DNA of 32,306 nt from Deltaproteobacteria bacterium (GTDB taxonomy: Bacteria > CG2-30-53-67), in assembly GCA_013151235.1 (NCBI GenBank), contig JAADIO010000026.1, positions 1-32,306 on the forward strand. Reading direction: 5' to 3'. Under the pieces are notes generated by a model that was not told where the DNA came from, searched no databases, and saw nothing but the letters and a program-made list of their open reading frames with translations. Positions within the stretch are counted from its first letter, which is position 1. Every line of letters begins with the position of its first letter. Positions 9,089 to 32,191 of the stretch are shown here, piece after piece. Both the position numbers and the translations under genes were made by a program.

Positions 9089-9104
9089 CGAAGAGTCAAT
9101 GTAT

Positions 9105-9221: not shown

Positions 9222-9232
9222 AATGTATAGGC

Positions 9233-9248: not shown

Positions 9249-9289
9249 GAAGTTGTGATGGATAAGAATTGAGAAGTGCCGGATGAACG

Positions 9290-10666: not shown

Positions 10667-10713
10667 CGTCGAACAGGGATTGAATAGCAACCTCTTTTCT
10701 GGAGAATCAAGCG

Positions 10714-11520: not shown

Positions 11521-11568
11521 CCGACATACTTACAGGGGTATGCTTGCCGAATAACAGAGGCGTGAGAG

Positions 11569-11581
11569 GGGGGCTTCCCCC
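11569..11581 (+). promoter_or_regulatory. GC hairpin just before the ATPase start
   Basis: GGGGG (11569-11573), a CTT loop and CCCCC (11577-11581) form a compact 5-bp stem 11 nt before the ATPase ATG. The purine-rich run GAGAGGGG, which would be its Shine-Dalgarno region, is partly inside the stem. The hairpin could hide the site or bring a distant site closer to the start. Confidence 0.35.
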
Positions 11582-11592
11582 ATGGATGTACC

Positions 11593-14053: not shown

Positions 14054-14061
14054 AAGGTCTT

Positions 14062-14625: not shown

Positions 14626-15572
14626 GAGTACTCGTGACGGGGGGCGCGGGTTTTATCGGATCGACCCTTGTGGATCGTCTTCTCGAACGGGGTGACTCCG
14701 TGATCTGTCTCGACTCCTTTGATGATTTCTACGATCCGTCCATCAAACGGTGCAACCTTGAGATGGTTTCCAACCATCCGGGATTTACCCTGCTTACAGG
14801 GGATATCCGGGATAATGCCGTGATGAAGAAGGTGATGGATGACCTCTCTTTTGATGCCGTCATTCACACGGCGGCCCGGGCCGGGGTCCGGCCCTCCATC
14901 GAACAGCCCGCCCTCTACGAGGATGTCAACATTAAAGGAACGATGAATCTTCTGGAACTTGCCCGGCAGGTGCAGCCTGCAAACTTTGTTTTTCTTTCTT
15001 CCTCCTCGGTCTACGGTGTGAACAGGAAGGTTCCCTTTTCCGAGACCGATCCCGTCGACCATCCGATCTCTCCCTATGCAGCGACCAAGAAAGCCTGCGA
15101 GCTGATCTGCCATACCTATCATCATCTTTACGGCCTCAACATCACCTGCGTCCGGCCCTTTACCGTTTACGGCCCGCGGCAGCGGCCGGAGATGGCGATT
15201 CACAAATTTACCCGGATGATCGACCGGGGCGAGACGCTCCCCATGTTCGGGGACGGAACCTCCCGACGTGATTATACCTATATCGATGATCTTGTGGACG
15301 GGATCCTGCGGGCGTTGGACCGCCCCCTCGGTTATGACGTCATCAATCTCGGAGAACACGACACGATTGCACTGCGGGAGTTGATCGCCCTCATTGAAAA
15401 GAATCTTGGAAAGAAAGCGCGGATTGAAAAGTTGCCCGATCAGCCCGGTGATGTGCCGGTGACTTATGCCGACATCACACGGGCGAAAGAAAAATTGGGC
15501 TACGCCCCGCAAGTCAAGGTGCCGGAAGGGGTTCGGAAATTTGTAGAGTGGTACCGGGAAAGAAGTGTATAG
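14622..15572 (+). CDS. UDP-glucuronate 4-epimerase (NAD-dependent SDR)
   Basis: This extended short-chain dehydrogenase is predicted to interconvert UDP-glucuronate and UDP-galacturonate. At 316 aa it shows TGGAGFIGS (6-14), the SSSS stretch at 126-129, and the catalytic Tyr152-xxx-Lys156 pair (PYAATKK). The segment AARAGVRPSIEQP resembles the AxAGVRxSIExP signature that marks UDP-glucuronate epimerases such as CapI/LpsL. The UDP-glucose dehydrogenase 10 nt downstream would supply its substrate. The start overlaps gmhA by 4 nt, with AGGAG 6 nt before the ATG. Confidence 0.85.
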   Translation: MRVLVTGGAGFIGSTLVDRLLERGDSVICLDSFDDFYDPSIKRCNLEMVSNHPGFTLLTGDIRDNAVMKKVMDDLSFDAVIHTAARAGVRPSIEQPALYEDVNIKGTMNLLELARQVQPANFVFLSSSSVYGVNRKVPFSETDPVDHPISPYAATKKACELICHTYHHLYGLNITCVRPFTVYGPRQRPEMAIHKFTRMIDRGETLPMFGDGTSRRDYTYIDDLVDGILRALDRPLGYDVINLGEHDTIALRELIALIEKNLGKKARIEKLPDQPGDVPVTYADITRAKEKLGYAPQVKVPEGVRKFVEWYRERSV

Positions 15573-15581
15573 GGAGGCGGT

Positions 15582-16883
15582 ATGCATATTGCAGTGATAG
15601 GAACAGGTTATGTCGGTCTTGTTTCCGGGACTTGCTTTGCCGAGTTCGGCATCAACGTGACCTGTGTGGATAACAACAGGGCGAAAATCGACGCACTGAA
15701 TGAGGGGAAGGTCCCGATTTATGAGCCCGGTCTGGAGGACATGGTCCAGAAAAATGTCCGGGAGGAGAGGCTTTTTTTTACTACGAACATCCAGGAGGCC
15801 GTGGAGAAGGCGTTGGTCATCTTCATTGCCGTAGGCACCCCCCAGGGAGACGGCGGGGCGGCCGATCTTTCCTATGTGGAAGAGGTGGCCCGGGAGATCG
15901 GGCGCTACATGAACGGGTACAAGGTGATCGTGGACAAGAGTACCGTCCCCGTCGGAACGGGGAAGCGGGTGGCGAACATTATCCGGGAGAACCAGACCGG
16001 TCACTACAGCTTTGATGTTGTCTCCAACCCGGAGTTCCTCCGGGAAGGGTCGGCCATCGAGGACTTCATGCGCCCCAACCGGGTCGTGATCGGGACCTCC
16101 AGCGACCAGGCCCAGGCGATCATGAAGGATCTCTACAAACCGCTCTACCTCATCGAGGCCCCCATGCTCTTTACCTCGGTGGAGAGCGCCGAGATGATCA
16201 AGTATGCCTCCAATGCCTTTCTGGCCACAAAGATCTCCTTTGTCAACGAGATCGCCAACCTCTGTGAGAAGGTCGGGGCCGATGTCCATCATGTGGCCAA
16301 GGGGATGGGGCTTGATGGCCGGATCAGCTCCAAGTTTCTCCACGCCGGCCCGGGGTTCGGCGGTTCCTGCTTCCCGAAAGATACGGCGGCACTGGCCCGG
16401 TTAGGCAAGAACCATGAAGTCGAGATGCAGGTGGTCCGGGCTGCGATCCAGGCCAATGAAAGTCAGAAGGAGAAAATGGTGGGAAAGATTACATCCGTTG
16501 TGGGCGACCTCGCGGGCAAAACCATCGGGGTTCTGGGACTCTCCTTCAAACCGAATACCGACGACATGCGGGATGCCCCCTCCCTGGTTATCATCAAGGG
16601 ATTACAACGGCAGGGGGCTTCGATCCGGGCTTACGATCCTGAGGCGATGGAGGCATCGAAGGCCTTGCTGCGCGAGATCGAATATTGTGGCAACCCCTAT
16701 GAGGTGGCGGACGGCGCCGATGCTCTGGTACTGGTGACGGAGTGGAACCAGTTTCGAATGCTTGATCTGGAAAAGCTCAAAGAATTGCTCAAATCGCCGG
16801 TCCTGGTCGATCTTCGGAATGTCTATGAACCGGAAACCCTCCGTGCTGCCGGGTTTACCTATACCTGTGTTGGGAGAGGCTGA
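15582..16883 (+). CDS. ugd: UDP-glucose 6-dehydrogenase
   Basis: The enzyme oxidises UDP-glucose to UDP-glucuronate with two NAD+. The 433-aa protein has GTGYVG (7-12), FIAVGTPQGDGGAADLSYV, STVPVGTG, and the catalytic Cys263 within GPGFGGSCFPKDT, the motif of true UDP-glucose dehydrogenases. A GGGAGG site lies a few nt before the ATG. It follows the predicted UDP-glucuronate epimerase, giving a two-gene uronate pair. About 200 nt of non-coding repeats follow. Confidence 0.95.
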   Translation: MHIAVIGTGYVGLVSGTCFAEFGINVTCVDNNRAKIDALNEGKVPIYEPGLEDMVQKNVREERLFFTTNIQEAVEKALVIFIAVGTPQGDGGAADLSYVEEVAREIGRYMNGYKVIVDKSTVPVGTGKRVANIIRENQTGHYSFDVVSNPEFLREGSAIEDFMRPNRVVIGTSSDQAQAIMKDLYKPLYLIEAPMLFTSVESAEMIKYASNAFLATKISFVNEIANLCEKVGADVHHVAKGMGLDGRISSKFLHAGPGFGGSCFPKDTAALARLGKNHEVEMQVVRAAIQANESQKEKMVGKITSVVGDLAGKTIGVLGLSFKPNTDDMRDAPSLVIIKGLQRQGASIRAYDPEAMEASKALLREIEYCGNPYEVADGADALVLVTEWNQFRMLDLEKLKELLKSPVLVDLRNVYEPETLRAAGFTYTCVGRG

Positions 16884-17018
16884 AGTTCTGAGGGGCGGAG
16901 GGACAAAGGCACAAAGGGGCAAAGGGACATGGGGAAAAGTCAAAGGCGAAAAGCATTCACCACGGGGGACACGAGGAGTCACGGGGGAAAAGATAAAATC
17001 AAGGTCAAAAGTGAAAAG
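16884..17018. repeat. Dispersed short repeats after ugd
   Basis: This gap holds two repeat types. One is a series of GGGACAAAGGCACAAAGG-like units (about 16895-16930). The other, CACCACGGGGGACACG...CACGGGGGAAAA (16958-16989), reappears as a similar run at 19421-19450. No ORF or RNA gene was recognised. Confidence 0.6.
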
Positions 17019-17048
17019 CGTCCCGGTTTACCCGGGACGGAAGTTGCT
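17019..17048 (+). promoter_or_regulatory. Candidate sigma-54 promoter overlapping a hairpin, upstream of galE-like gene
   Basis: CGGGACGGAAGTTGCT at 17033-17048 matches TGGCACG-N4-TTGCW at all but two informative positions. The GG (17034-17035) and GC (17046-17047) are 10 nt apart. It lies 38 nt before the epimerase ATG. An 8-bp inverted repeat, CGTCCCGG (17019-17026) and CCGGGACG (17032-17039), overlaps the -24 element; no T run follows, so it is not an obvious terminator. This is the better of the two sigma-54-like sites in the window. Confidence 0.42.
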
Positions 17049-17085
17049 GACCGCTGAGTGCTGAAAGCTTATATAAGGAGAAACC

Positions 17086-18015
17086 ATGGCCAAAACGTTA
17101 GTCACAGGTGGCGCCGGGTTCATCGGCTCCCATGTCGTGCGTGAGATGATTCAAAACGGTCTGGAGGTGGTGGTCGTGGACGATCTCTCTTCCGGGAAGA
17201 AGGAGAACCTTCCGGACGGTGTGAGCTTCCATGAACTCGATATCACCTCCCCGGAACTGGAAAAAGTCTTTGAATCGGAACGGCCCGATTATGTTCATCA
17301 CCTGGCCGCCCAGATCAGTGTGGCCGATTCCGTTCGGGATCCCCTCCATGATGCCATGGTCAATGTCGTCGGTTCCGTGAACCTGTTGCAGAACGCAGTG
17401 AAGTACGGCGTGAAAAAGTTCATCTTCTCCTCCTCCGGCGGGACCGTTTATGGCGCCACGGAACATCTGCCCGCGGTGGAGGAACTCCCCTTCTCTGCGA
17501 TGTCGCCTTACGGTGTGACCAAGATCTGCATGGAGTATTATCTTCCCTATTACCGGGCGGAGAAAGGTCTGAACTATACCGTGCTTCGATATTCCAATGT
17601 TTATGGACCCCGGCAGGATCCCCACGGCGAGGCAGGGGTGGTGGCCATTTTCTGCCGGACCATGTTGGACGGCCGGACGCCGACGATCAACGGTGACGGA
17701 AAATATATCCGGGATTATGTCTATGCCGGGGATGTGGCGCGGGCCAACTTTCTGGCTATTGAAAAGGGGGACCACGACTGCTTTAATATCGGCACCGGTG
17801 TCCGGACCGATGTGAACCAGCTCTATCAGGAGATTGCAGCGGTAATCGGTTTTGATCAGGCCCCTCCTCATGGGCCGCACCGGCCGGGAGATCTGCGGGA
17901 AAATTATCTCAATGCCTCCAAGGCATCACGTCTCCTCGGATGGGAACCCCGGATTTCTCTGAAAGATGGGCTGGCAAGGACGGTGGACTATTTTCGGAAT
18001 GGAGGTCGAAGTTGA
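17086..18015 (+). CDS. GalE-like NAD-dependent sugar epimerase
   Basis: This is a 309-aa extended SDR, most likely a UDP-glucose/UDP-galactose (or UDP-GlcNAc) 4-epimerase. It has TGGAGFIGS (7-15), HLAAQISVADSVRDP (72-86), SSSGGTVYG from residue 115, the catalytic Tyr142-xxx-Lys146 pair (PYGVTK) and RYSNVYGPRQDP. The last two resemble the short bacterial/archaeal GalE group rather than E. coli GalE. The acceptor sugar cannot be fixed from sequence; an epimerase or dehydratase of another UDP-sugar remains possible. AAGGAG lies 6 nt before the ATG. The next gene starts inside its last codons. Confidence 0.85.
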   Translation: MAKTLVTGGAGFIGSHVVREMIQNGLEVVVVDDLSSGKKENLPDGVSFHELDITSPELEKVFESERPDYVHHLAAQISVADSVRDPLHDAMVNVVGSVNLLQNAVKYGVKKFIFSSSGGTVYGATEHLPAVEELPFSAMSPYGVTKICMEYYLPYYRAEKGLNYTVLRYSNVYGPRQDPHGEAGVVAIFCRTMLDGRTPTINGDGKYIRDYVYAGDVARANFLAIEKGDHDCFNIGTGVRTDVNQLYQEIAAVIGFDQAPPHGPHRPGDLRENYLNASKASRLLGWEPRISLKDGLARTVDYFRNGGRS

Positions 18016-19385
18016 ATCGGGACGGAATCAATCCCGGGATCTTCCGGGCTTATGATATCCGGGGGATCGTGGGCAAAGACCTGGACGGCTCGGTTGCCGA
18101 ACGGATTGGCCGGGCCTACGGGACCTATGTTGCGGTAAAAGGGGTCCGGACGGTTTCCGTCGGCCGGGACGGCCGGCTGAGCTCGGAGGAGCTTGCTTCC
18201 TCCCTGATCGAGGGACTCTGTGCCGCAGGACTGGATGTGATCGATGTCGGACTCTGCCCCACACCGCTGCTCTATTTCTCCCTCTTTCATCTCCCCGTGG
18301 ACGGCGGGATCATGGTGACGGGCAGTCACAATCCCCCCGACTATAACGGATTCAAGATCTGTGTGGGCAAAGAGACAATCCACGGAGAAGAGATCCAGAA
18401 GATCCGGAAGGTTATTGAAGCAGGAAAATTTGAAGAAGGGAAGGGAAAACGGATTTCCGGCGAAATCATCCCCGACTATCTTGCTCATCAACGGAAGAGT
18501 TTCCAGGGGCTGACGGGCGGTCCCTCCCTTCGTGTTGTTGTGGATGCCGGAAATGGAACGGCAGCCACAGTGGCTCCGTCCCTTCTCTCGGATCTGGGCT
18601 GTGATGTGATTCCCCTCTTCTGCGAGATCGACGGGAACTTTCCGAACCATTTTCCGGATCCCACCGTTCCGGAGAATCTTGTTTCGCTGATTGCAAAGGT
18701 CCGGGAGACCTCCGCCGATTTCGGAGTCGCCTATGACGGGGACGCCGACCGGATCGGTATCGTCGATGATCAAGGCGCGATTGTCTGGGGGGACCAACTG
18801 ATGATCCTCTTCGGCCGGGAGATTCTGAAACGGACGCCGGGGGCTACATTCATCTCCGAAGTCAAGTGCTCCCAGGTGATGTATGATGACCTGAGGTCCA
18901 AAGGAGGCAACCCCATTATGTGGAAAACGGGCCACTCCCTGATCAAAAGTAAAATGAAAGAGACCGGAGCGGCCCTTGCCGGGGAGATGAGCGGGCACAT
19001 TTTTTTCGCCGACCGTTATTACGGCTATGATGATGCGATCTATGCCACCTGCCGTTTGGTCGAGATTCTGAAAGCGAGCGGCAGACGGGTCTCGGAACTT
19101 CTCTCGGATCTTCCAAAGACCTTTGCCACCCCGGAGATCCGTCGGGAGTGCAGCGAAAAGAAAAAGTTCGGGATCGTCGAGGCTGCGAAAGAACGTTTTG
19201 CAAGAGAGTTTGAGATCATTGATGTAGATGGGGTCAGAATCCTGTTTAAAGACGGTGCATGGGGTCTGATCCGTGCCTCCAATACGCAGCCGGTTCTGGT
19301 CCTTCGGTTCGAAGCAAAAAGTGAAGCAAGGCTCAAGGAAGTGCAAAACTTCGTGGAGGGAGAGCTGGAGAAATTGGAAAGATGA
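18012..19385 (+). CDS. Phosphomannomutase/phosphoglucomutase (ManB/AlgC type)
   Basis: The enzyme interconverts hexose 6-phosphates and hexose 1-phosphates (mannose and glucose), feeding GDP-mannose and UDP/dTDP-glucose synthesis. A TTG start at 18012, overlapping the epimerase stop by 4 nt and preceded by GGAGGT 5 nt upstream, gives 457 aa, the normal family length. The frame is open further upstream to an ATG at 17940, inside the epimerase, but that would add 24 unneeded residues. Motifs include the N-terminal FRAYDIRG, phospho-Ser105 in TGSHNP, the metal loop YDGDADR, GEMSGH and the phosphate-binding RASNTQP. It is the first step of the GDP-fucose route completed by manC, gmd and fcl downstream. 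Confidence 0.94.
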   Translation: MNRDGINPGIFRAYDIRGIVGKDLDGSVAERIGRAYGTYVAVKGVRTVSVGRDGRLSSEELASSLIEGLCAAGLDVIDVGLCPTPLLYFSLFHLPVDGGIMVTGSHNPPDYNGFKICVGKETIHGEEIQKIRKVIEAGKFEEGKGKRISGEIIPDYLAHQRKSFQGLTGGPSLRVVVDAGNGTAATVAPSLLSDLGCDVIPLFCEIDGNFPNHFPDPTVPENLVSLIAKVRETSADFGVAYDGDADRIGIVDDQGAIVWGDQLMILFGREILKRTPGATFISEVKCSQVMYDDLRSKGGNPIMWKTGHSLIKSKMKETGAALAGEMSGHIFFADRYYGYDDAIYATCRLVEILKASGRRVSELLSDLPKTFATPEIRRECSEKKKFGIVEAAKERFAREFEIIDVDGVRILFKDGAWGLIRASNTQPVLVLRFEAKSEARLKEVQNFVEGELEKLER

Positions 19386-19591: not shown

Positions 19592-20143
19592 ATGGATTCC
19601 ATGATCAAGATTGAAGAAAACAGGGAAAACACCGGGGATGTCTCCGGGAAGAACTGGTACGCCGTCCATACCCGTTCCCGGCACGAGAAAAAGGTCGATA
19701 CCGAACTGAAGGGCAAGGGAGTGGAATCTTTTCTTCCACTCTATGAAACCCTGAGTCGCAGACGGGACCGGAAAAAGGTGATCGATCTTCCCCTCTTTTC
19801 CGGATATCTCTTTGTACACATTGTGCCTGAGCGGGAACGGATTCTGGATGTTCTGAAGGTCAAGGGGGTCGTCCGGATTATCGGCAGAACGTCGACGGAA
19901 CTCCATGCCATACCGGAGGCGCAGATCGAAGCGGTCCGCAGGTTTGTTGAAAGTGATGTCCTGATCAGCGGGCATCCCTATATCAAGGAAGGAAGCCGGG
20001 TCCGCGTCAAGTGCGGCCCCCTGACGGGCGTTGAAGGGGTCCTGCAGGAGAAGCGGGGAAAGCACCGCCTGATCATCGCCGTTGACATGCTGCAGCAGGC
20101 CGTTTCCACGGAGATCTCCGTCGATGAGGTGGAGCCGGTGTAG
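19592..20143 (+). CDS. NusG-paralog transcription antiterminator (UpxY/RfaH-like)
   Basis: Specialised NusG paralogs bind RNA polymerase and let it read through long polysaccharide operons. This 183-aa protein has the NGN domain at about 20-115, opening with NWYAVHTRSRHEKKVDTEL and containing LFSGYLFVHI. A KOW-like segment follows at about 130-165 (IKEGSRVRVKCGPLTGVEG). Its place inside an EPS locus, rather than beside secE and ribosomal protein genes, argues for a locus-specific factor. An in-frame ATG at 19601 is an alternative start; GGGA lies about 9 nt before 19592. A classical RfaH ops element (GGCGGTAGCNT) was not found, so the recruitment signal is unknown. Confidence 0.88.
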   Translation: MDSMIKIEENRENTGDVSGKNWYAVHTRSRHEKKVDTELKGKGVESFLPLYETLSRRRDRKKVIDLPLFSGYLFVHIVPERERILDVLKVKGVVRIIGRTSTELHAIPEAQIEAVRRFVESDVLISGHPYIKEGSRVRVKCGPLTGVEGVLQEKRGKHRLIIAVDMLQQAVSTEISVDEVEPV

Positions 20144-20706: not shown

Positions 20707-21315
20707 ATGAATTTATTGAAAAAACCGAAGTACGGCAAACCGATTATTGTTGTTTCCGGTCTGCCCCGGTCGGGCACCTCGATGATGATGAAGATGCTTG
20801 AGGCCGGGGGCGTGGAGATCGCTTCCGACGGCGAACGGAAAGCCGACGACGACAACCCGAAGGGCTATTATGAACTGGAGCGGATTAAGGAACTTGATAA
20901 AGGCAAAGATAAAAGTTGGGTCAAGAATCTTCGGGGCAAGGCGGTGAAGGTAATCTCCTTCCTTCTCAAGGACCTGCCCGGCGAGCATTTCTACAAAGTG
21001 ATCTTTGTGCGTCGGGACCTGAAGGAGGTCATGGCCTCCCAGAACAAGATGCTCGTGAATCGGGGTGTAGATTTTGATCCTTCCTATGAAAAGAAAATGA
21101 TTGCGAATTATGAAAAGCATCTACATCAAGTGGAGCAGATACTGAAAGGGGATGACCGGTTTGATGTGCTCTATCTAAGTCATCGAGAGATCTTGAACGA
21201 CCCTTTAACGTCGGCCAAGGCCATATCATCTTTTGTGCAAGACGGGCTGAATGAAAAAGCCATGGCCGGGGTCGTCGACACAGCACTCTATCGGAACCGT
21301 AACGGAGTGATTTAA
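20707..21315 (+). CDS. PAPS-dependent sulfotransferase family protein
   Basis: Sulfotransferases move a sulfuryl group from PAPS to an acceptor hydroxyl or amine. This 202-aa protein has the 5'-phosphosulfate loop GLPRSGTSMMMKML (from residue 18) and a 3'-phosphate-binding segment VRRDLKEVMASQ (101-112) with Arg102/Arg103 and Ser111. It is shorter than many family members, but both PAPS contacts are present. No signal peptide or membrane segment is visible, so it probably works in the cytosol on a nucleotide sugar or lipid-linked intermediate. The acceptor is unknown. Next come a glycosylphosphotransferase (3 nt away), a PAP phosphatase and a PAPS synthase, which together strongly support a sulfation role. 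AAAGGA lies about 12 nt before the ATG. Confidence 0.82.
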   Translation: MNLLKKPKYGKPIIVVSGLPRSGTSMMMKMLEAGGVEIASDGERKADDDNPKGYYELERIKELDKGKDKSWVKNLRGKAVKVISFLLKDLPGEHFYKVIFVRRDLKEVMASQNKMLVNRGVDFDPSYEKKMIANYEKHLHQVEQILKGDDRFDVLYLSHREILNDPLTSAKAISSFVQDGLNEKAMAGVVDTALYRNRNGVI

Positions 21316-21318
21316 AAG

Positions 21319-22767
21319 ATGCTGCGTGAACGTGCTCGGATGGTGACGAGGATCTCCGTTATTACGGACGTCATCATTGAACTTGTTGCCTTCTATCTGG
21401 CCCACTGGGTTCGGAATACCTTTCTCATTGGTCTGGCCTGGGAGGTTATGGGGAAGGTTTATGTCGTCCATGAGCGGGAACTGGCGAGCCAGGACCTCTG
21501 GCTGCTGGTCATGATCATTCCCTTTTCCCTCTATCTCTTTCGCCATTACGGGGCCTACGAATCGGCCCGGCTGAAGAGTTTCGGGATGGTGATGAGCGGA
21601 TACCTCTCGGGGATCCTCGCGATGCTGATTTTCCTCGTATTGATGCACGATGTTTTTGTTCAGTTGAGAATCAGCCGTCTTCTTTCCGTCCTTTTTCTCG
21701 GATTCACTGCATTGTTGATCGCCATCAAGGAACAGGTTCTTTTCTTCGCGATGCATCATTTCCGGGGGATGGGGTTTAATTTTCGGAATGTTCTGATTGT
21801 CGGGAGCGGTCCCCGCGCCATGGAGGTGGTGGATGCACTGAAAGAGCATCCGGAGTGGGGGCTCAGGCTGGTCGGTTTCGTCGACCCGGATCCGAATCGT
21901 GTGGGGAAAGAGTATGGAGGCCATGTTGTCGTGGGGAGTGTAGATGATTTGCCGCAAACACTTGACGAGAACGTGGTGGATGAAGTTATTATCGCCATGC
22001 CGAGAAGCTGGTTCCAGCTTGTGGAAAAGGTCCTTCGCACCTGCGAGACCTCGGGGATTCGTGCCCATCTCCGATTTGATCTTTTCAATCCCAAGATCGC
22101 CAAACCGGTCTTTCACGACCTCTTCGGGTTTCATCTCCTCTCCTTCGAAACAACCTCCATGCATGATATTCAATTACTGGTCAAGCGCGGGTTCGATGTG
22201 GGGGCCTCCCTGATCCTCATTCTTCTTTTCGCACCGCTGATGATCGCGGTTGCCCTGCTCGTAAAACTAACTTCGCCCGGTCCGGTCTTCTTCAAACAGG
22301 AACGGATGGGGTTGAATGGGCGGCGCTTCATGATGTACAAGTTTCGCTCCATGTATGTTGATGCGGAAGAGCGTCTGACCGAACTGGAGGATCAAAACGA
22401 AATGACGGGACCGGTCTTCAAAATTTCCGACGACCCGCGTGTGACCCCCGTCGGTCGTTTCATCCGGAAGTTCAGCATCGATGAACTTCCCCAGCTTTTT
22501 AACGTCTTCAAGGGGGAGATGTCTCTCGTTGGTCCCCGTCCTCCCGTCTATCGGGAAGTTGTCGAATACCAGCGATGGCAGCGTCGCCGGCTTTCCATGC
22601 GTCCCGGAATCACCTGTATCTGGCAGGTTAGCGGCAGGAACGATATCGATTTCGAGGAGTGGATGGAACTCGATTTGGAATACATCGACAACTGGTCTTT
22701 CTGGCTCGACCTGAAACTTCTCTTCAAGACCATCCCGGCGGTCCTGGCCGGGAAGGGGGCGCACTGA
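21319..22767 (+). CDS. Second polyprenyl glycosylphosphotransferase (WcaJ-like)
   Basis: This 482-aa enzyme is predicted to load a sugar-1-phosphate onto undecaprenyl phosphate. It has four to five N-terminal membrane segments (about 10-150), a CoA-binding-like Rossmann segment ([18 protein letters not shown]), a further membrane helix, and the catalytic C-terminal domain. Motifs are [34 protein letters not shown] and [16 protein letters not shown]. The last two make it more like WcaJ/CpsE-type (hexose-1-P) enzymes than the one at 9290, but specificity is an inference. It starts 3 nt after the sulfotransferase stop. Two initiating enzymes in one locus imply either two polymers or one redundant enzyme. 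Confidence 0.93.
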
Positions 22768-22776
22768 AAACCTGCT

Positions 22777-22806
22777 CACCGCAAAGGAGCAAAAGACGCA
22801 AAGGAA
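22777..22806. repeat. CACCGCAAAGG-type dispersed repeat supplying a ribosome-binding site
   Basis: CACCGCAAAGGAGCAAAAGA and the following CGCAAAGGAAA are a variant of the CACCGCAGAGACGCAGAGG family also seen at 23598-23625 and in inverted form around 29581-29676. The final AAAGGAAA is the only Shine-Dalgarno-like sequence near the cysQ ATG at 22817. Confidence 0.55.
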
Positions 22807-22816
22807 ACCATAAATT

Positions 22817-23590
22817 ATGAATATAGAAATAGACAAAGTTTGCAGTATTGCCGTTGAAGCCGGTCATGCCATCCTTGAGGTCTATCAAAAGGATTTTGAC
22901 GTCGAATACAAGGATGATTATTCTCCCCTGACCGAAGCGGACAAGGCCTCCCATCAGATTATAGAAAGAGAGCTGTTAAAACGCTATCCGGAGATTCCCG
23001 TTCTTTCCGAAGAAGGGAAGGGAATCCCCTACCCGGAGCGGAGGAACTGGGAGCGTTTCTGGCTGGTCGATCCGCTGGACGGAACCAAGGAATTCATCAA
23101 GCGGAATGGTGAATTCACCGTCAATATCGCCCTCATTGAAGGGTATCGCCCCGCAGCCGGTGTGATCTACATTCCCGTTGAGGACCGCCTCTTCTACGGG
23201 ATCGTGGGGGAGGGGGCCTGGTCCCGGAATGGAGACGGGGAGACCGTTCCCATCCATGTCCGGGAAAGCCCGTCGGAGAACGGGCTTGTCGTTGTACAGA
23301 GCCGTTCCCATCCATCGGAAGCGCTCCGGCATTATCTGGGGAAGCTGAACATCAGGGAGTCGATTGCCAGAGGGAGCTCCCTGAAACTCTGCGCCGTCGC
23401 CGACGGAAGTGCCGACATCTATCCCCGTCTCGGCCCGACTTGGGAATGGGATACTGCCGCCGGTCATGCCATCGTCGAGGCAGCGGGGGGACACGTCGTG
23501 GACCTGAAGAAGATGCCTTTACGATACAATAAGGAAGTGATCAAGAACGACCACTTCATCGTTGTCTCGGATCTGGGGTTGATGCCGTGA
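22817..23590 (+). CDS. cysQ: 3'(2'),5'-bisphosphate nucleotidase (CysQ type)
   Basis: CysQ hydrolyses 3'-phosphoadenosine 5'-phosphate (PAP), the by-product of sulfotransferases, to AMP and phosphate. The 257-aa protein is an inositol-monophosphatase-fold enzyme with the metal sites VLSEEG (62-67) and DPLDGTKEF (85-93), and the C-terminal WEWDTAAGHA motif. PLTEADKASH near residue 37 is also typical. DGTKEFIKRNGEFTVNIALI is the CysQ subfamily form. Its location between a sulfotransferase/glycosylphosphotransferase pair and a PAPS synthase fits PAP recycling. Confidence 0.94.
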   Translation: MNIEIDKVCSIAVEAGHAILEVYQKDFDVEYKDDYSPLTEADKASHQIIERELLKRYPEIPVLSEEGKGIPYPERRNWERFWLVDPLDGTKEFIKRNGEFTVNIALIEGYRPAAGVIYIPVEDRLFYGIVGEGAWSRNGDGETVPIHVRESPSENGLVVVQSRSHPSEALRHYLGKLNIRESIARGSSLKLCAVADGSADIYPRLGPTWEWDTAAGHAIVEAAGGHVVDLKKMPLRYNKEVIKNDHFIVVSDLGLMP

Positions 23591-23597
23591 GGTATTT

Positions 23598-23625
23598 CAC
23601 CGCAGAGACGCAGAGGGCGCAGAGA
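23598..23625. repeat. CACCGCAGAG-type dispersed repeat
   Basis: CACCGCAGAGACGCAGAGGG followed by CGCAGAG occupies the start of the 94-bp gap between cysQ and the PAPS synthase gene. It belongs to the same family as 22777-22806 and the interrupted copy at 29581-29676. Confidence 0.65.
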
Positions 23626-23684
23626 AGATCAACAACATAGCAAAAAACAAAGGATGAACAAGAGCAAAGGGAAAAGGATATTTT

Positions 23685-25412
23685 ATGACTCATGTAAACG
23701 AACCCTACGGCGAAACACTGATCAATCTTCTTGAAAACCCTGACCGGGTGCGGGAGCTGAATGAACTCGGCAAGACGATTCCCTCCCATACCCTGACCCA
23801 TCGTCAGATTTGCGACCTGGAACTTCTTCTGAACGGGGGACTGTCGCCTCTCCGGGGGTTCATGTTGCGGGAGGAATACGAATCGGTATTGGAGGAGATG
23901 CGTCTTGACGACGGTAAGCTCTGGCCTGTGCCGATAACCTTGGATGTCCCCGATGCCCTGGCCGCTCAGGTCGAACCGGGAGGAGAACTGGCCCTGCGTG
24001 ATTCGGAAGGATTCATGGTTGCCGTCCTCCGGGTGGAAAGCCGCTGGAAGGCGGATCGGGAGAAAGAGGCAAAGCTTCTCTTCGGGACGGATTCAAGGGA
24101 TCACCCAGGCGTCCGCTATCTTCTGGAAGAAGTGAACGACACTTATATTGGGGGACGGGTCGAGGGCATCCAGCTTCCCCTCCATTATGATTTCGAGACC
24201 CTGCGTCATACTCCTGCCGAACTGCGTGCGGAATTCGAGCGTCTTGGCTGGCGCCGGGTTGTCGCCTTTCACACCAGCAAACCGATGCACCGGATCCACA
24301 GGGAGATTACCCTGAAGGCTGCGCGGGAGGCCAATGCACACATTCTGATCCATCCGGCGGTCGGAATGACCAAACCGGGCGATCTCCATTATTATGCGAG
24401 AGTCCACTGTTACGAGGCGATTCTGCGGCACTATCCCCACAACTTGGCGGTCCTTTCACTGCTCCCGGTTGCCGTCCGGATGGCCGGTCCCAGGGAGGCC
24501 TTAATGAATGCCATCATCCGCAAAAATTACGGCTGCTCACATATCATCATCGGTCCGGAACATGCAGCGCCGCCGAATCTTCGCGACGGGGAGAAACGGT
24601 TTTATCCTGCATACGCCTCGCAGGAGATTGTCCGAAAACATATGGAAGAGATAGGGATTGAAATGATTCCTGTTCGGGAGATGCGGTATGTGCCGGAGAC
24701 CGGCACCTTCCTCCCCCTGACCCGGATTGAGCGGGAGGGCAAAACAGGCCTCGTTTTTACGGACAAGCGGCTCCGGGAAGATCTTGCCTGCAATCGAAAA
24801 ATCCCGGACTGGTTCTCTTATCCCGATGTTATTGAAAGACTCCGCACGGTTTATCCTCGACGAAGCAAACAAGGGCTGACCCTCTTTTTTACCGGCCTCT
24901 CCGGAGCGGGGAAGTCGACCCTGGCCAAGATCCTTTATGCGAAATTTATTGAAGCCGGCGGCCGACCGGTCACGTTGCTGGACGGGGATATCGTTCGACG
25001 CAATCTTTCGAGCGAACTCGGATTTTCCAAGGCACACCGGGATCTGAACATCCAGCGAATCGGATTTGTGGCCGGAGAGATTACGAAAAACGGCGGAGTC
25101 GCCATCTGTGCCCCGATTGCTCCTTATTCAGCAATGCGCAGAGCCGTGAGGGAATTGATCGAGCAGCACGGCGCCTTTATCGAGATCCATGTTGCAACCC
25201 CGGTGGAGGTTTGCGAAGGCCGGGACCGCAAAGGGCTTTACGCCAAGGCGAGGGCCGGACTGATCCCGGCGTTCACCGGAGTCAGCGATCCCTATGAAGT
25301 GCCGGAGACCCCTGAGATTCGTATTGACACGACCGACACTTCTCCCATGGAAGCCGCCCAGGAGGTTTTTCTCTACCTCATTCGGGAAGGATATATCGAT
25401 ACGGAGGGGTGA
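23685..25412 (+). CDS. Fused ATP sulfurylase-like / APS kinase (PAPS synthase)
   Basis: This 575-aa fusion should make PAPS from sulfate and ATP in two steps. Residues 1-385 are the ATP sulfurylase fold (PUA-like start, LSPLRGFM at 53-60, VRMAGPREAL at 264-273). Residues 395-570 are APS kinase with P-loop GLSGAGKST (404-412), LLDGD, LGFSKAHRDLN and CEGRDRKGLYAKARAG, all close to consensus. The sulfurylase active site is unusual. The normal QxRNPxHxxH motif is HTSKPMHRIH (196-205), keeping both histidines but losing Gln, Arg and Asn. The normal GRDHA is GPEHA (290-294). Sulfate activation by this half is therefore uncertain. AAAGG precedes the ATG. It closes the sulfation module. Confidence 0.88.
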   Translation: MTHVNEPYGETLINLLENPDRVRELNELGKTIPSHTLTHRQICDLELLLNGGLSPLRGFMLREEYESVLEEMRLDDGKLWPVPITLDVPDALAAQVEPGGELALRDSEGFMVAVLRVESRWKADREKEAKLLFGTDSRDHPGVRYLLEEVNDTYIGGRVEGIQLPLHYDFETLRHTPAELRAEFERLGWRRVVAFHTSKPMHRIHREITLKAAREANAHILIHPAVGMTKPGDLHYYARVHCYEAILRHYPHNLAVLSLLPVAVRMAGPREALMNAIIRKNYGCSHIIIGPEHAAPPNLRDGEKRFYPAYASQEIVRKHMEEIGIEMIPVREMRYVPETGTFLPLTRIEREGKTGLVFTDKRLREDLACNRKIPDWFSYPDVIERLRTVYPRRSKQGLTLFFTGLSGAGKSTLAKILYAKFIEAGGRPVTLLDGDIVRRNLSSELGFSKAHRDLNIQRIGFVAGEITKNGGVAICAPIAPYSAMRRAVRELIEQHGAFIEIHVATPVEVCEGRDRKGLYAKARAGLIPAFTGVSDPYEVPETPEIRIDTTDTSPMEAAQEVFLYLIREGYIDTEG

Positions 25413-26200: not shown

Positions 26201-27070
26201 ATGAAAGGTATCATCCTGGCCGGGGGTTCCGGCACACGGCTCTATCCCATCACCCGGGCCGTCAGTAAACAGCTTCTTCCCGTATACGACAAGCCGATGA
26301 TCTATTATCCTCTTTCCACGCTCATGTTGGCGGGACTGCGGGAGATCCTCGTCATATCAACACCGCATGACCTTCCGAACTTCGAGCGGCTCTTAGGCGC
26401 CGGCGAACAGTGGGGGATAGATCTGCACTATGCCGAGCAGCCGGAGCCGAATGGACTGGCCGAGGCCTTTCGGATCGGAGCGGACTTCATCGGAGGTCAA
26501 CCCAGTTGCCTGATCCTCGGGGACAATATTTTCCATGGACAAGGTTTGAGCCGGGTGTTGCAACAGTCTGCTCAACTCACGGAAGGGGCACGGGTTTTTG
26601 CCTACTGGGTGAAAGATCCGGAACGTTATGGTGTGGTAAAAATTGATGAGCAAGGCCGGGCGACGAGTATTGAGGAGAAGCCGAAGAAACCTAAATCCCA
26701 TTTTGCCGTGACCGGGCTTTATTTTTACGATCATGAAGTCGTCGAGATTGCGCGGGGGCTTTCACCCTCATTACGGGGAGAACTGGAGATCACCGATCTC
26801 AATCTTGTATATCTCGAAAGAAAGCAATTAACTGTGGAAAAACTCGGCCGCGGTACAGCCTGGCTCGATACGGGCACTCACCAGTCCCTGCAGCAGGCCT
26901 CCACCTTCATCGAAACCATCGAGGCCCGCCAGGGATTGAAGATCGCATGTATAGAGGAGATCGCATACCGGATGGGTTATATCGAAGCCGAAGCACTTGA
27001 GGCTCTTGCAAAACCGCTCTGCAAGAATGATTACGGGAAGTACCTGCTCCAGATTCTTCGGGAAGAGTGA
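26201..27070 (+). CDS. rmlA: Glucose-1-phosphate thymidylyltransferase
   Basis: RmlA (RfbA) makes dTDP-glucose from dTTP and glucose 1-phosphate, the entry to dTDP-L-rhamnose and related deoxysugars. At 289 aa it has the normal length and motifs: GGSGTRLYP (8-16), [42 protein letters not shown]. The short form with [11 protein letters not shown] is the RmlA type rather than the long RmlA-like regulators. AAAGGA lies 7 nt before the ATG. rmlB, rmlC and rmlD are absent from the window, so the later steps must be elsewhere or this gene serves another dTDP-sugar. Confidence 0.95.
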
Positions 27071-27132
27071 ATATTATGATTCCGGAAACATTGGAATCAA
27101 AGGAAGAACTAATCCTCAGATAAAGGAATCCC

Positions 27133-28551
27133 ATGACCCTCTACCCCGTCATTCTTGCCGGAGGTTCCGGCACCCGGCTCTGGCCGATGTCGAGGGAGTT
27201 TTATCCCAAACCGATGCTCCCCCTCCTCGGTGAGAACACCCTGTTGCAGGAAACGGTCAGACGGCTGGATGGAATCCAAGGAATTGCCGGCCCGCTCTTT
27301 GTCTGTAACGAGGAACACCGGTTTCTTGTCGCCGAACAGGTTCGGAAATCCGGTCGGGAACCTGCGTGCATTCTCCTGGAACCGAAGGGACGCAACACCG
27401 CACCGGCCCTGACCCTTGCAGCCCTCTTTCTTCTGGAGCAGGATCCGGAGGCTATGATGGCCATCATGCCGGCGGATCATGTTATCGCTGGACGAAAAAA
27501 ATTCTGTGATACCGTTCGGCAGGGACTTCCTCTTGCAGAAAAGGGAGAACTGGTCACCTTTGGTGTTGTTCCTGAGCGCCCCGAAACCGGATACGGCTAC
27601 ATCCGTAAGGGAAAACCGGTCAAGGGTACAACCGCATCGAAGGTCGGCGAATTTGTAGAAAAACCGGACCTTCAGAAGGCGGAAGAATATCTGGCGGCCG
27701 GGGAATATCTTTGGAACAGCGGGATCTTTCTGATGAAGGCCTCTCGCTGGATCGCAGAACTCAAACAATATCGCCCCGATATAGAAAAGATGTGCCGGAA
27801 GGCTTCGGCCCGAAGTCACCAGGACGGAGATTTCTATCGTGTCGACAAGGAGGCATTTCTCTCCTGCCCGAGTGACTCCATCGACTATGCCGTGATGGAA
27901 AAGACCGATCGGGCAGCCGTCCTTCCTCTTGATGCCGGATGGTCCGACGTGGGGGACTGGTCCTCGCTTTACGAAATTGCTGAAAAGGACGAACAGGGAA
28001 ATGTCCTCCGGGGGGATGTGGTTGCCCTGGATACGCGTGATTCCCTGCTGATGTCTCAGAGTCGTTTTCTGGCAACGGTCGGGCTGGAGAAAATGGTTGT
28101 CATCGAAACGGCCGATGCCGTTCTTGTGGCCGACAAGAAAAAAGCACAGGATGTAAAACAGGTCGTCAAGTGGCTCAAGGAAAACAAACGGGAGGAATAC
28201 AGGATCCACCGCAAGGTCTATCGGCCCTGGGGGGCCTACGAAGGAGTCGATGCCGGAGAACGGTTTCAGGTCAAACGCCTCTCCGTGAAACCCGGAGCAC
28301 AGCTTTCTTTGCAGAAGCATTATCACCGTGCCGAACACTGGATCGTCGTCCGGGGAACGGCACGGATCACCGTCGGGGAGAAAGTGTTCGTTCTGACGGA
28401 AAACCAGTCGACCTATATCCCCCTGGGTGAGATGCACCGCCTTGAAAACCCCGGGACCATCCCCCTGGAAATCATCGAGGTCCAGTCCGGAAGCTACCTC
28501 GGCGAAGACGATATAGAACGCTTCGCCGATGTTTACGATCGATGTGATTGA
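27133..28551 (+). CDS. manC: Mannose-1-phosphate guanylyltransferase / mannose-6-phosphate isomerase
   Basis: This bifunctional enzyme (type II PMI-GMP) isomerises fructose 6-phosphate to mannose 6-phosphate and makes GDP-mannose from mannose 1-phosphate. The 472-aa protein has the nucleotidyltransferase loop GGSGTRLWP (10-18), MPADHVI, FVEKP near 174-178, and WNSGIF. The C-terminal cupin PMI domain has QKHYHRAEHWIVV with metal ligands His396 and His398, and EVQSGSYLGEDDI. The usual PKQF after the loop is PKPM here, a mild variation. It supplies GDP-mannose to gmd, and the phosphomannomutase at 18012 supplies its substrate. AAGGAA lies 5 nt before the ATG. Confidence 0.95.
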   Translation: MTLYPVILAGGSGTRLWPMSREFYPKPMLPLLGENTLLQETVRRLDGIQGIAGPLFVCNEEHRFLVAEQVRKSGREPACILLEPKGRNTAPALTLAALFLLEQDPEAMMAIMPADHVIAGRKKFCDTVRQGLPLAEKGELVTFGVVPERPETGYGYIRKGKPVKGTTASKVGEFVEKPDLQKAEEYLAAGEYLWNSGIFLMKASRWIAELKQYRPDIEKMCRKASARSHQDGDFYRVDKEAFLSCPSDSIDYAVMEKTDRAAVLPLDAGWSDVGDWSSLYEIAEKDEQGNVLRGDVVALDTRDSLLMSQSRFLATVGLEKMVVIETADAVLVADKKKAQDVKQVVKWLKENKREEYRIHRKVYRPWGAYEGVDAGERFQVKRLSVKPGAQLSLQKHYHRAEHWIVVRGTARITVGEKVFVLTENQSTYIPLGEMHRLENPGTIPLEIIEVQSGSYLGEDDIERFADVYDRCD

Positions 28552-28586
28552 AAGAGTGAGATGTTTCTTTTCGGGAACCTGCAGCG

Positions 28587-29477
28587 ATGAATCCCATGCT
28601 TAAAAACGTAGAAGGAACGCTCCTCGGAGCACTTCCCATTATCGGTGTCGGCATGAAGGGGGTGGTCCTTTTCGGTTCCTCCGTTCGGGGAGATCCGTCG
28701 GAAGACTCCGACATTGATCTTCTCATCGTTCTGGAACCGCTGGACAGAAACCGACGCAGCCGAAGAGAGACCTATGTCCGGATCAAACAAACCTTGAATT
28801 TGTCTCGTCCTCTCGACCTCCTGTTGTATGAGAAGAGGGAATGCCTGTACAATTTTCGAAACCATAATCCTCTTTTCCTCGATATTGCCACGGAGGGGCT
28901 TGTACTGTATGATCCGGAAGGTTTCCTGAAACGAGAAATGGATACAACCCGGGAATACATCGCCCGAAAAGGGCTTGTGAAACAGGACGATGGTTGGGAC
29001 TTCCCCGTGGATTATCGAAAGGTCTCCAGCCTTTCAAAGGTCAGCAATCGTGACTTTGTTATAGCATGGTTGACGGATTCTCAGCGTGACCTTGCGTCGG
29101 CCCGAAAACTGCACGACGCGTCGCTCTGCGAGAAGTCGATCTATCATTGCCAACAAGCCGTTGAAAAGGCCTCCAAGGCGGTCCTGCTTTGCTGGGGAAC
29201 ATACCGCAAAACCCATTTTACGGCCGGGATCCTGCGGGCCGAAGTCGCCGGGCAGAAGATGCCGGAATCGCTCCGGAATGATCTCAATCGGATCTCGGAA
29301 TATGCTGAACTCATGGAACCCGAGATCAGTCTTGCACGATACCCAGGAATGCATGAAGGGGGACTATGGGTTCCATCAGAGGAATATGGCGAGGAGGATT
29401 CGTCGGACGCAATCGACAAGGCGGAAGAAGTCCTGAAGATTGCCGATAAATTTGTAAAGTGGTGGTTCAAATCATAA
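28587..29477 (+). CDS. Fused nucleotidyltransferase (MNT)-HEPN protein
   Basis: This 296-aa protein joins both halves of an MNT-HEPN system in one chain. The N-terminal nucleotidyltransferase (about 20-110) has GSSVRG (30-35), Asp42-x-Asp44 in EDSDIDLL, and Asp77 in RPLDLLL, so the three acidic residues are present. A linker of about 50 residues follows, then a HEPN domain from about 155 to 290, with CQQAVEKASKAVLL and YRKTHFT resembling the split HEPN protein at 25735. No clear C-terminal Rx4-6H RNase motif was found; ARYPGMH fits the spacing but sits in a loop. It begins 35 nt after manC. Its GC content is closer to the locus average than the split pair. Function unknown. Confidence 0.85.
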   Translation: MNPMLKNVEGTLLGALPIIGVGMKGVVLFGSSVRGDPSEDSDIDLLIVLEPLDRNRRSRRETYVRIKQTLNLSRPLDLLLYEKRECLYNFRNHNPLFLDIATEGLVLYDPEGFLKREMDTTREYIARKGLVKQDDGWDFPVDYRKVSSLSKVSNRDFVIAWLTDSQRDLASARKLHDASLCEKSIYHCQQAVEKASKAVLLCWGTYRKTHFTAGILRAEVAGQKMPESLRNDLNRISEYAELMEPEISLARYPGMHEGGLWVPSEEYGEEDSSDAIDKAEEVLKIADKFVKWWFKS

Positions 29478-29503
29478 TGGATTTGCTTTAGAGTTCTTTA
29501 ATG

Positions 29504-29680
29504 TAGTTGTTCTTCTCTGTGATCTCAGTGTACTCAGTGGTGCGAAGCTTTTGACTTTGCTTTTGCCCAAGAATTGATTTCCTCCGCGTCCTTTGCCTGC
29601 CTGTGCGGGTGCCCCGCACCTGTCTGCGTGCGGGCTGCCCGCACAGGCAGGCGCAGACAGGCGCCTCTGCGGTGGAAAAA
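29504..29680. repeat. Dispersed repeat interrupted by a 66-bp palindromic cluster
   Basis: The gap between the MNT-HEPN gene and gmd holds an inverted copy of the CACCGCAGAG family: CCTCCGCGTCCTTTG (29581-29595) and CGCCTCTGCGGTG (29662-29674), split by 66 bp. The insert (29596-29661) has nested inverted repeats. The outer pair is GCCTGCCTGTGCGGG (29595-29609) with CCCGCACAGGCAGGC (29638-29652). A second pair is CCTGTCTGCG (29619-29628) with CGCAGACAGG (29652-29661). A third is GTGCGGG (29603-29609) with CCCGCAC (29613-29619). The upstream 29513-29545 segment (TCTGTGATCTCAGTG) is another common repeat type. Confidence 0.7.
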
Positions 29681-29700
29681 CTTGACCAAGGGAGACCCTT

Positions 29701-30786
29701 ATGAAAACAGCATTAATCACCGGGATCACCGGCCAGGACGGCGCCTACTTGGCGGAATTCCTGCTGAAGGCAGGCTACACGGTCCACGGAATCAAGCGTC
29801 GGGCCTCCCTCTTCAATACCGACCGGATCGACCACCTCTACCGGGATCCGCACGACAAGGAGAGCCGCTTCCACCTCCACTACGGGGACCTGACCGACTC
29901 CACCAATTTGATCCGGATTATCCAGGAGACGAAGCCCGACGAGATCTACAACCTTGCCGCCCAGAGTCACGTCCAGGTCTCCTTCGACACCGCCGAATAT
30001 ACCGCCAATGCCGATGCACTGGGGACCCTCAGAATTCTGGAGGCCTTGCGAATCCTGGGAATGGAAAAAGCGGCCCGATTCTACCAGGCCTCCACCAGTG
30101 AACTCTTCGGTCTCGTGCAGGAAGTGCCGCAGAAGGAAACGACCCCGTTCTACCCCCGGAGTCCCTATGCTGTGGCCAAGCTCTATGCTTACTGGATTTG
30201 CAAAAACTACCGGGAGGCCTACGGGATTTACGCCTGTAACGGAATTTTATTTAATCATGAATCACCCCTTCGGGGAGAAACCTTCGTTACCCGCAAGATC
30301 ACCCGGGCCGTGGCCCGTATTTATCTCGGACTGCAGGAGAGGCTTTATCTCGGCAATCTGAACGCCAAACGGGACTGGGGGGATGCCCGGGATTACGTGG
30401 AAGCGCAGTGGAAAATCCTGCAACAGCCCGAACCGGACGACTACGTGATTGCCACGGGCGAGCAGCACTCCGTCCGGGAGTTTGTCGAGCTTGCCTTTCA
30501 GGAGGTCGATATAAAGATCAAATGGGAAGGGAGAGGGGTCGATGAAAAGGGGATTGACGATAAGAGCGGCAAAGTCCTTGTTGAAGTTGATCCCCGTTAC
30601 TTCCGCCCCACCGAAGTGGAAAGCCTTCTCGGTGACCCTACAAAATCGAGGGAACAACTCGGATGGATTCCGAAAATTACCTTTGAGCAAATGGTTGCCG
30701 ACATGGTGCAATACGATCTGGAAGAAGCAAAGCGGGATGAACACTGCAAGAAAGGCGGATTCCGGATCTACAGCCACCATGAATAG
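29701..30786 (+). CDS. gmd: GDP-mannose 4,6-dehydratase
   Basis: Gmd converts GDP-D-mannose to GDP-4-keto-6-deoxy-D-mannose, the branch point to GDP-L-fucose and GDP-rhamnose. The 361-aa NADP-dependent SDR has [11 protein letters not shown] (7-17), [12 protein letters not shown] (84-95), the catalytic set Thr132/Glu134 in STSELFG, and Tyr156-xxx-Lys160 in [23 protein letters not shown] is diagnostic of Gmd. GGGAG lies about 7 nt before the ATG. The reductase/epimerase fcl follows after a 463-bp repeat-rich gap. Confidence 0.97.
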
Positions 30787-31021
30787 ATGAGGGAATGATA
30801 TTTTGTTCTCCCTCGTCTCTGAAGGTGTTTGTGAAATGGTCCGGGATGGGATTTCGAGACAAGAGGACCACCCCTCACCTCGATCCTCTCCCCTGGTATT
30901 GGCCGTTTGATCGGCTTAAACCGTTCAAGCGGTTGAAACGGTTTGGTCCTCCCCTTTGGGAAGCTTGCCGAACTACATGCCCGGAAGCCGGTTGCGCCAC
31001 GCGAACGGAATGTCAATCACT

Positions 31022-31120
31022 TACACCGTTCGCCCTGAGCCGGTCGAAGGGTGGACGGAGACCGGACGGAATGCCGAAGGAGTGGATGGGGCTTTGAAGT
31101 ATCCGCCCCTCTTCCGGGGT
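31022..31120 (+). repeat. 99-bp direct repeat, copy A (left of fcl)
   Basis: From TACACCGTTCGCCCTGAGCC to CTTCCGGGGT, this segment matches 32208-32306 base for base except for four substitutions, with no gaps. The two copies lie on the same strand on either side of fcl, 1,186 bp apart. It includes the widespread CGTTCGCCCTGAGC...TCGAAGGG unit. Confidence 0.85.
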
Positions 31121-31213
31121 GGCCCGGTTGCTCCTTCTCCCCGCTGGGGAGAAGGCCGGGATGAGGGGGGACCCTGGAAGCTATCCTTGGCAAGGTGAGC
31201 CAAAAGCAGACTT

Positions 31214-31229
31214 GACCCCTCTTGGGGTC
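31214..31229 (+). terminator. Small hairpin followed by GTTTT, upstream of fcl
   Basis: GACCCC (31214-31219), a TCTT loop and GGGGTC (31224-31229) make a 6-bp stem followed by GTTTTCC. It ends 20 nt before the fcl ATG. It could be a weak terminator or attenuator, or simply a repeat remnant. Confidence 0.3.
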
Positions 31230-31249
31230 GTTTTCCGGGGAAATGTAAC

Positions 31250-32191
31250 ATGAACCTTGCACCGGATTCCAAAATCTACATCGCAGGCCACCGGGGCCTC
31301 GTCGGCTCCGCCATCGTGAGAAGGCTCGAAAAAAGCGGCTATCATAACCTCCTTACACGGACCCATCATGAACTCGACCTTACCGACCCGAAGGTCGTCC
31401 TTGATTTTTTTGACAAGGAGCGTCCGGACTATGTATTCCTGGCCGCGGCAAAAGTCGGCGGGATCCACGCAAACAACACCCGGCCGGCCGACTTTATCCG
31501 GGACAATCTCTTCATCGAGCTGTCCATAATAGATGCCGCGTACCGTACGGGAACGAAGCGACTCCTTTTTCTCGGTAGCTCCTGCATCTACCCGAAGATA
31601 GCGCCCCAGCCGCTTAAAGAAGAATACCTCATGACCGGTCCCCTGGAGCCGACCAACTCCGCTTACGCATTGGCCAAGATCGCCGGGATCGAGATGTGCA
31701 AGTCATACAACCGCCAGTACGGAACGCGATATCTTCCCGTAATGCCGACGAACCTCTACGGTCCGGGCGACAACTTTGACCTCGAAAGCTCTCACGTCCT
31801 GCCTGCTCTCATCCGGAAATTCCACGAAGCCAGAATCGGTGGGGCCAAAACCGTCACCATCTGGGGAACGGGAACGCCCCGTCGGGAATTCCTCCATGTG
31901 GACGACCTGGCCGATGCCTGTGTCTATCTCATGGAAAATTATAATGGAACCGATCTGATCAATATCGGGACCGGAGAGGACATCACCATCCGGGAATTAG
32001 CGGAAATGGTAGGGGTGGTCACAGGCTTCGAGGGAAAACTGAAATTCGATCCTTCCAGGCCCGACGGCACACCCCGGAAACTCCTTGATGTATCAAGATT
32101 GAACTCAATCGGCTGGAAAGCAGGAATCGGCCTGGCGGAGGGAATCCGGGCAACCTACCAGTGGTACCTTGATCAATCTCCGGAAGAATAA
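31250..32191 (+). CDS. fcl: GDP-L-fucose synthase
   Basis: Fcl (WcaG) epimerises and reduces GDP-4-keto-6-deoxy-mannose to GDP-L-fucose with NADPH, finishing the pathway begun by gmd. The 313-aa SDR has [13 protein letters not shown] (13-25), [12 protein letters not shown], the catalytic serine region GSSCIYPK (Ser110/Ser111), Tyr139-xxx-Lys143 in YALAK, and [13 protein letters not shown], all characteristic of the family. GGGGAAA about 9 nt before the ATG is the likely ribosome-binding site. The gene is bracketed by the 99-bp direct repeats at 31022 and 32208, an arrangement that could permit its loss by recombination. Confidence 0.97.

Follow-up and report, generated by a model that had tools for sequence, protein, structure and literature searches.

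Most of the sulfated bacterial exopolysaccharides (EPS) described so far come from cyanobacteria and from certain marine proteobacteria. Here, a four-gene sulfation block was analyzed that lies within an XrtA-type EPS locus of a Deltaproteobacteria bacterium from candidate phylum CG2-30-53-67 (assembly GCA_013151235.1, contig JAADIO010000026.1). The 32,306-nucleotide stretch, hereafter called the window, is all of contig C26 of a 2.62-Mb draft genome (G000) that is 99% complete. The block encodes a sulfotransferase predicted to use 3′-phosphoadenosine 5′-phosphosulfate (PAPS), a second initiating sugar transferase, a CysQ phosphatase for 3′-phosphoadenosine 5′-phosphate (PAP), and a kinase for adenosine 5′-phosphosulfate (APS) fused to an ATP-sulfurylase (Sat)-like domain. 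The module is real, conserved, and functionally coherent. We put at roughly 0.62 the probability that it is the glycan-sulfation module of this EPS locus and depends on a split sulfate-activation route, in which an outside Sat makes APS and the fusion performs the kinase step only.

PAPS genes together with sulfotransferases are already known from polysaccharide clusters. In the capsule cluster of Cobetia marina KMM 1449, APS kinase, CysQ and sulfotransferase genes likewise stand together, and the capsule was chemically shown to be sulfated (PMC11766843). In the available part of that description, supply is by CysD and a CysN/CysC fusion, the capsule is of the ABC-transporter (kps) type, and neither XrtA genes nor a degenerate Sat fusion are reported. 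Similarly, Vibrio sp. KMM 8419, whose sulfated capsule has been chemically characterized, carries PAPS genes and sulfotransferases within a polysaccharide cluster (PMC11641403), which differs in its CysNDC-type supply and kps transporter. The synechan (xss) EPS cluster of Synechocystis also contains genes of Pfam sulfotransferase families, but it is cyanobacterial and has two sulfotransferases, and the term PAPS is absent from the main text of the paper (PMC8205485). This paper was the sole match when a literature library was searched for exosortase, sulfotransferase and exopolysaccharide jointly. Three things are new in the present case: the locus is of the XrtA type, it comes from a candidate phylum, and its supply is split, the Sat domain being probably dead.

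Gene block and predicted activities

The block consists of the following genes.

20707..21315, + strand: compact sulfotransferase, predicted PAPS-dependent, 202 aa (Pfam Sulfotransfer_3/_1, motifs, AlphaFold2 model, Foldseek)
21319..22767, + strand: second polyprenyl-phosphate sugar-1-phosphate transferase, initiating (TIGR03025, PF02397), the variable passenger of the block
22817..23590, + strand: CysQ, 3′(2′),5′-bisphosphate nucleotidase or PAP phosphatase (TIGR01331; best solved match CysQ, 3b8b)
23685..25412, + strand: APS kinase with N-terminal ATP-sulfurylase-like domain (PRK05537; closest solved structures 1i2d, 3cr8 and 2gks)

The genes are separated by 3, 49 and 94 bp, and all products scored above the curated cut-offs of their families. 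The sulfotransferase reached 35 bits for Sulfotransfer_3 and 30 bits for Sulfotransfer_1, the initiating transferase 441 bits for TIGR03025 (cut-off 296), CysQ 305.6 bits for the TIGR01331 equivalog (cut-off 228.8) and the fusion 825 bits for PRK05537 (cut-off 669). The sulfation block described in the initial annotation was thereby confirmed in its position on a single strand and in its gene families. Of the activities assigned there, PAPS use and PAP removal stand. The fusion was also taken to make APS itself, and this part is not supported; it probably cannot do so, as the sulfate-binding signature of its Sat domain is altered and only the APS-kinase motifs are intact.

In the sulfotransferase, the 5′-phosphosulfate-binding loop GLPRSGTS (aa 18-25) and the 3′-phosphate-binding residues R103 and S111, spaced by 8, do not vary across 39 relatives belonging to many phyla. 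Glu56 and Glu58 are likewise invariant and are candidates for the catalytic base. The AlphaFold2 model has a mean predicted local distance difference test score (pLDDT) of 86.6. Its top Foldseek matches in the PDB are the PAPS sulfotransferases Teg12, Teg14, StaL and SULTs, and Stf0 structures also match; 45 matches were obtained at E <= 0.001, nearly all of them sulfotransferases, with query template-modeling (TM) scores of ~0.43-0.59. With its PAPS site intact and its predicted fold like that of sulfotransferases, this 202-residue protein is predicted to be a PAPS-dependent sulfotransferase.

The family measures about 200 residues and occurs in metagenome-assembled genomes (MAGs) labeled Chloroflexi, Planctomycetota, Deltaproteobacteria, KSB1 and others. 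In 13 loci from Deltaproteobacteria and other MAGs (L018, L020, L038, L040, L043, L047, L048, L057, L058, L076, L077, L080 and L087), a protein that we read as type I phosphodiesterase/nucleotide pyrophosphatase-like is encoded near the compact sulfotransferase. One relative (L026, CAMAXZ010000002.1) is titled Klebsiella pneumoniae but clusters with Deltaproteobacteria-like sequences and is probably from a mislabeled MAG.

Sulfurylase-like domain and source of APS

Two APS kinases with a comparable architecture have been described. The enzyme of Thiobacillus denitrificans (PDB 3cr8) also combines a Sat-like domain with an APS kinase and has an altered QxRN motif; its sulfurylase-like domain was reported inactive and its kinase active (Gay et al. 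2009, as cited in PMC13213808). It carries other substitutions than the fusion in the window and has also lost the second His of HxxH, which is kept here. In Entamoeba histolytica, APS kinase is likewise fused to an inactive sulfurylase-like domain, shown to enhance the kinase, and a separate ATP sulfurylase performs the first step of PAPS synthesis; this enzyme differs in being eukaryotic, mitosomal and dimeric (PMC13213808). With an altered Sat-like domain, an intact APS kinase and a separate Sat in the genome, the fusion in the window fits this type.

The ATP-sulfurylase-like domain spans aa ~1-390 and the APS-kinase domain aa ~396-548. Within the former, the Sat signature QTRNPMHRAH reads HTSKPMHRIH (24270-24299) and GRDHAGP reads GPEHAAP (24552-24572). 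Within the latter, the P-loop GLSGAGKST (24894-24920) and DGDIVRR (24981-25001) are intact. The altered Sat motifs are common to four genomes (G000, G003, G004 and G005, of genera g1 and g3), one of them having GPEHASP. From docking to human PAPS synthase, R421 and R522 were proposed to lie next to sulfate (PMC11697783); by motif position, in our own mapping, they would correspond to S198 and P291 of the fusion. Both sulfate-contacting Arg positions, as well as the Gln/Asn of QxRN, are lost in the four fusions, whereas the QxRN and GRDH residues are present in every stand-alone Sat examined and in nearly all other fusions. Sat-half divergence among the four proteins is 2.1-3.3 times that of the kinase half, compared with mostly ~1.3-2.2 times in canonical fusions, near-identical pairs aside. 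On these data, the ATP-sulfurylase half has probably lost its catalytic activity, and the fusion probably acts as an APS kinase only.

One other Sat is encoded in G000, on contig C55 (120310-121479). It has canonical motifs and adjoins an iron-sulfur protein that we read as QmoC-like. Each of the eight phylum genomes has AprA above cut-off, and in four of them (G001, G003, G004 and G005) a canonical stand-alone Sat shares a contig with aprA, at a distance of ~5-8 kb. The candidate phylum is listed among the dsrAB-bearing genomes (PMC10591310). Since an intact separate Sat stands in an apr-qmo locus, APS is most likely available from the dissimilatory pathway, whichever way that pathway runs, and we infer that it flows from there into the block.

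The following route is proposed. APS would be made in the dissimilatory sulfur pathway, by its separate and intact Sat (and AprBA). The fusion would catalyze only the phosphorylation of APS to PAPS, and its Sat-like domain would be a remnant with a structural or regulatory role. The compact sulfotransferase would then transfer the sulfuryl group of PAPS to the EPS, at a hydroxyl of its repeat unit or of the lipid-linked precursor, CysQ would clear inhibitory PAP, and five further sulfotransferases would draw on the same PAPS pool. It is conceivable, but doubtful, that the Sat-like domain now serves as a sensor or docking domain (for APS, PAPS or the dissimilatory Sat) and tunes EPS sulfation to dissimilatory sulfur flux, APS being shared and competed for.

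PAPS supply had been regarded as dedicated to the EPS cluster; instead it is shared, because G000 has no strong APS kinase other than the fusion, which has to serve six PF00685 sulfotransferases. Three of the six lie on contig C24 with no APS kinase of their own; their neighbors there are glycosyltransferases, a polymerase of the Wzy type and a flippase of the Wzx type. In this cluster (L091:778-9290), glycosyltransferases alternate with the three sulfotransferases, and its polysaccharide may be more heavily sulfated than the product of the window locus. In an attempt to join contigs, the ends of C26 showed no exact overlaps of 12-300 bases with C24 or C28. On contig C40, an open frame of >1300 residues (L093:6477-10571) contains a sulfotransferase domain and is followed by a 2466-codon frame.

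PF01507 is a Pfam family that we take to cover PAPS reductase (CysH) and CysD. No PF01507 protein was found in G000 or in six of the seven other phylum genomes searched; the eighth genome, G001, has one, and a search for APS kinase in it found none. Because the genome has no PF01507 protein, its PAPS is, as far as gene content tells, not destined for the usual enzymes of assimilatory reduction.

Conservation and alternative explanations

A survey of the block in relatives upheld the grouping of sulfotransferase, CysQ and fusion, but not a fixed set of four genes. The order in G003 is sulfotransferase, CysQ, fusion, initiating transferase, RmlA. In G004, the sulfotransferase is followed on one contig by an EpsI-like protein and an exosortase, the latter two genes downstream, and CysQ, fusion, ManC and RmlA follow one another on another contig. 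In G005, sulfotransferase and initiating transferase share one contig, and CysQ, fusion, RmlA and ManC another. The core of the block is therefore sulfotransferase, CysQ and APS kinase; the initiating transferase is mobile, as its place shifts between relatives (after the APS kinase in G003, after RmlA in G004). G001 (L136, L123) also has the EPS-locus sulfotransferase, and its EPS contig stops just past this gene. In the sister family, the EPS cluster of G007 likewise holds a fusion and a CysQ-like phosphatase, and its Sulfotransfer_3 protein is a different one; a Wzy_C ligase and glycosyltransferases are encoded there too. Its fusion motifs, TTRNP and GRDYAGP, are altered less.

Outside the phylum, the sulfotransferase directly adjoins a Sat-APS kinase fusion in seven loci, five from Anaerolineae/Chloroflexota and two labeled Planctomycetes. 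In a set of 392 genomes from the phylum of the planctomycete, the majority of Sat-APS kinase fusions are canonical and four are altered (L180, L182, L184 and L194), of which two are linked to a sulfotransferase. Only at these two degenerate fusions was a sulfotransferase found within 1.5 kb, which is too few for a rule.

The split route is supported by the distribution of second Sats. Of the genomes with a sulfotransferase-linked fusion, all six in which it is degenerate (four of the phylum and two Planctomycetes) have a second canonical Sat, and none was found in the five from Anaerolineae/Chloroflexota in which it is canonical (Fisher p = 0.002).

Several points weigh against a sulfated EPS supplied by a kinase-only fusion. 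HxxH is retained in the Sat domain of the fusion (HRIH, aa 202-205). The contrast in second Sats is underlain by only three independent lineages. In the L184 and L194 genomes, a second Sat was not scored among three candidates per genome. An APS kinase was not seen in the examined stretch of ~70 of the 77 sulfotransferase loci from other phyla, where neighbors varied. Because most of these loci have no PAPS gene and their neighbors are mixed, family membership does not reveal the acceptor, which need not be EPS. That the EPS product is sulfated is likely. A universal linkage between this sulfotransferase family and PAPS genes was also considered and rejected, as most wider relatives have no adjoining PAPS genes.

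The retained HxxH, together with the PRK05537 score far over the cut-off and the identity of the HTSKPMHRIH segment across all four genomes, which indicates a constrained site, would suit an enzyme that is truly bifunctional, a PAPS synthase serving this EPS alone, with a divergent but still active Sat site. Such an enzyme is unlikely given the loss of residues that stand-alone Sats and nearly all fusions keep, the presence of a separate Sat, the faster divergence of the Sat domain, and the dependence of six sulfotransferases on a single strong APS kinase.

Alternatively, PAPS might be made here for another acceptor, such as a lipid, a PEP-CTERM protein or a small molecule, with the sulfotransferase present in the locus by linkage only. 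The nearest solved folds are indeed sulfotransferases of glycopeptide antibiotics and small molecules, and relatives in Anaerolineae and Deltaproteobacteria occur in unrelated contexts. However, the position in the EPS locus is kept in three genera, with the EpsI-like and exosortase genes next to it in G004. In Anaerolineae, relatives stand in glycan clusters, after a nucleotide-sugar dehydrogenase and a PAPS-synthase fusion, and the sister family uses a different sulfotransferase in a like cluster. An acceptor other than EPS is thus rather unlikely, and we infer that EPS is the substrate.

Genes for APS kinase and CysQ are common in sulfur assimilation, but that they are assimilatory here, with the sulfotransferase as a chance neighbor, is very improbable in view of the conserved synteny and of the phylum genomes, seven of eight having no PF01507 protein and the eighth no APS kinase.

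Surrounding locus and biological meaning

The block is embedded in the following genes of the window.

6638..12738, + strand: EPS export and assembly core, XrtA-type (TIGR03007 chain-length protein, TIGR03018 tyrosine autokinase, TIGR03015 ATPase, TIGR03027-related export protein)
9290..10666, + strand: first initiating transferase, XrtA/PEP-CTERM type (TIGR03013, 502 bits, cut-off 393)
12731..19385, + strand: sugar supply (nucleotide-sugar dehydrogenase, SIS protein, short-chain dehydrogenase/reductase (SDR), TuaD-like UDP-glucose dehydrogenase, GalE-like SDR, phosphomannomutase/phosphoglucomutase)
19592..20143, + strand: UpxY/RfaH-like NusG paralogue (NF033644, 132 bits)
26201..32191, + strand: sugar supply (RmlA, ManC, Gmd, Fcl), with an unrelated nucleotidyltransferase-HEPN gene between ManC and Gmd

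TIGR03007, TIGR03018, TIGR03015 and TIGR03013 were found above cut-off; the export protein remained under the TIGR03027 cut-off. An exosortase (PF09721) is encoded on contig C32 of G000; this assignment is at family level, and the XrtA subtype is putative. The NusG paralogue lies upstream of the block in every relative whose contig reaches it (L118, L119, L121 and L123).

Sugar-nucleotide genes flank the block on both sides. Of the fucose and uronate genes expected nearby, Gmd, Fcl (499.5 bits, narrowly below the cut-off of 500), two UDP-sugar dehydrogenases and SDR epimerases are present; ManC belongs to TIGR01479. A fucoidan-like composition, as also suggested earlier, is speculation, because no elongating glycosyltransferase was identified in the window and Gmd/Fcl indicate GDP-fucose capacity only. 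The nucleotidyltransferase-HEPN fusion gene (28587-29477) is 97% identical to its G005 copy, compared with 85-90% for its neighbors.

The 563 bp that separate the sulfotransferase from the UpxY/RfaH-like gene (20144-20706) have no assigned gene. A terminator-like hairpin of 15 pairs is located at 20164-20198. Clear conservation of this gap was not seen among relatives, an Rfam search of the window gave no RNA element matches, and promoter and terminator scans found sites no commoner than in shuffled sequence.

The known range of sulfated bacterial exopolysaccharides would be broadened by a conserved sulfation module that lies in an XrtA-type EPS locus and belongs to a candidate phylum having dissimilatory sulfur genes. 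The altered Sat motifs point to a possible sequence rule by which to recognize which annotated 'bifunctional PAPS synthase' probably performs the kinase step only. If the split route is true, matrix chemistry in these bacteria would connect to sulfur respiration via APS as a common intermediate.

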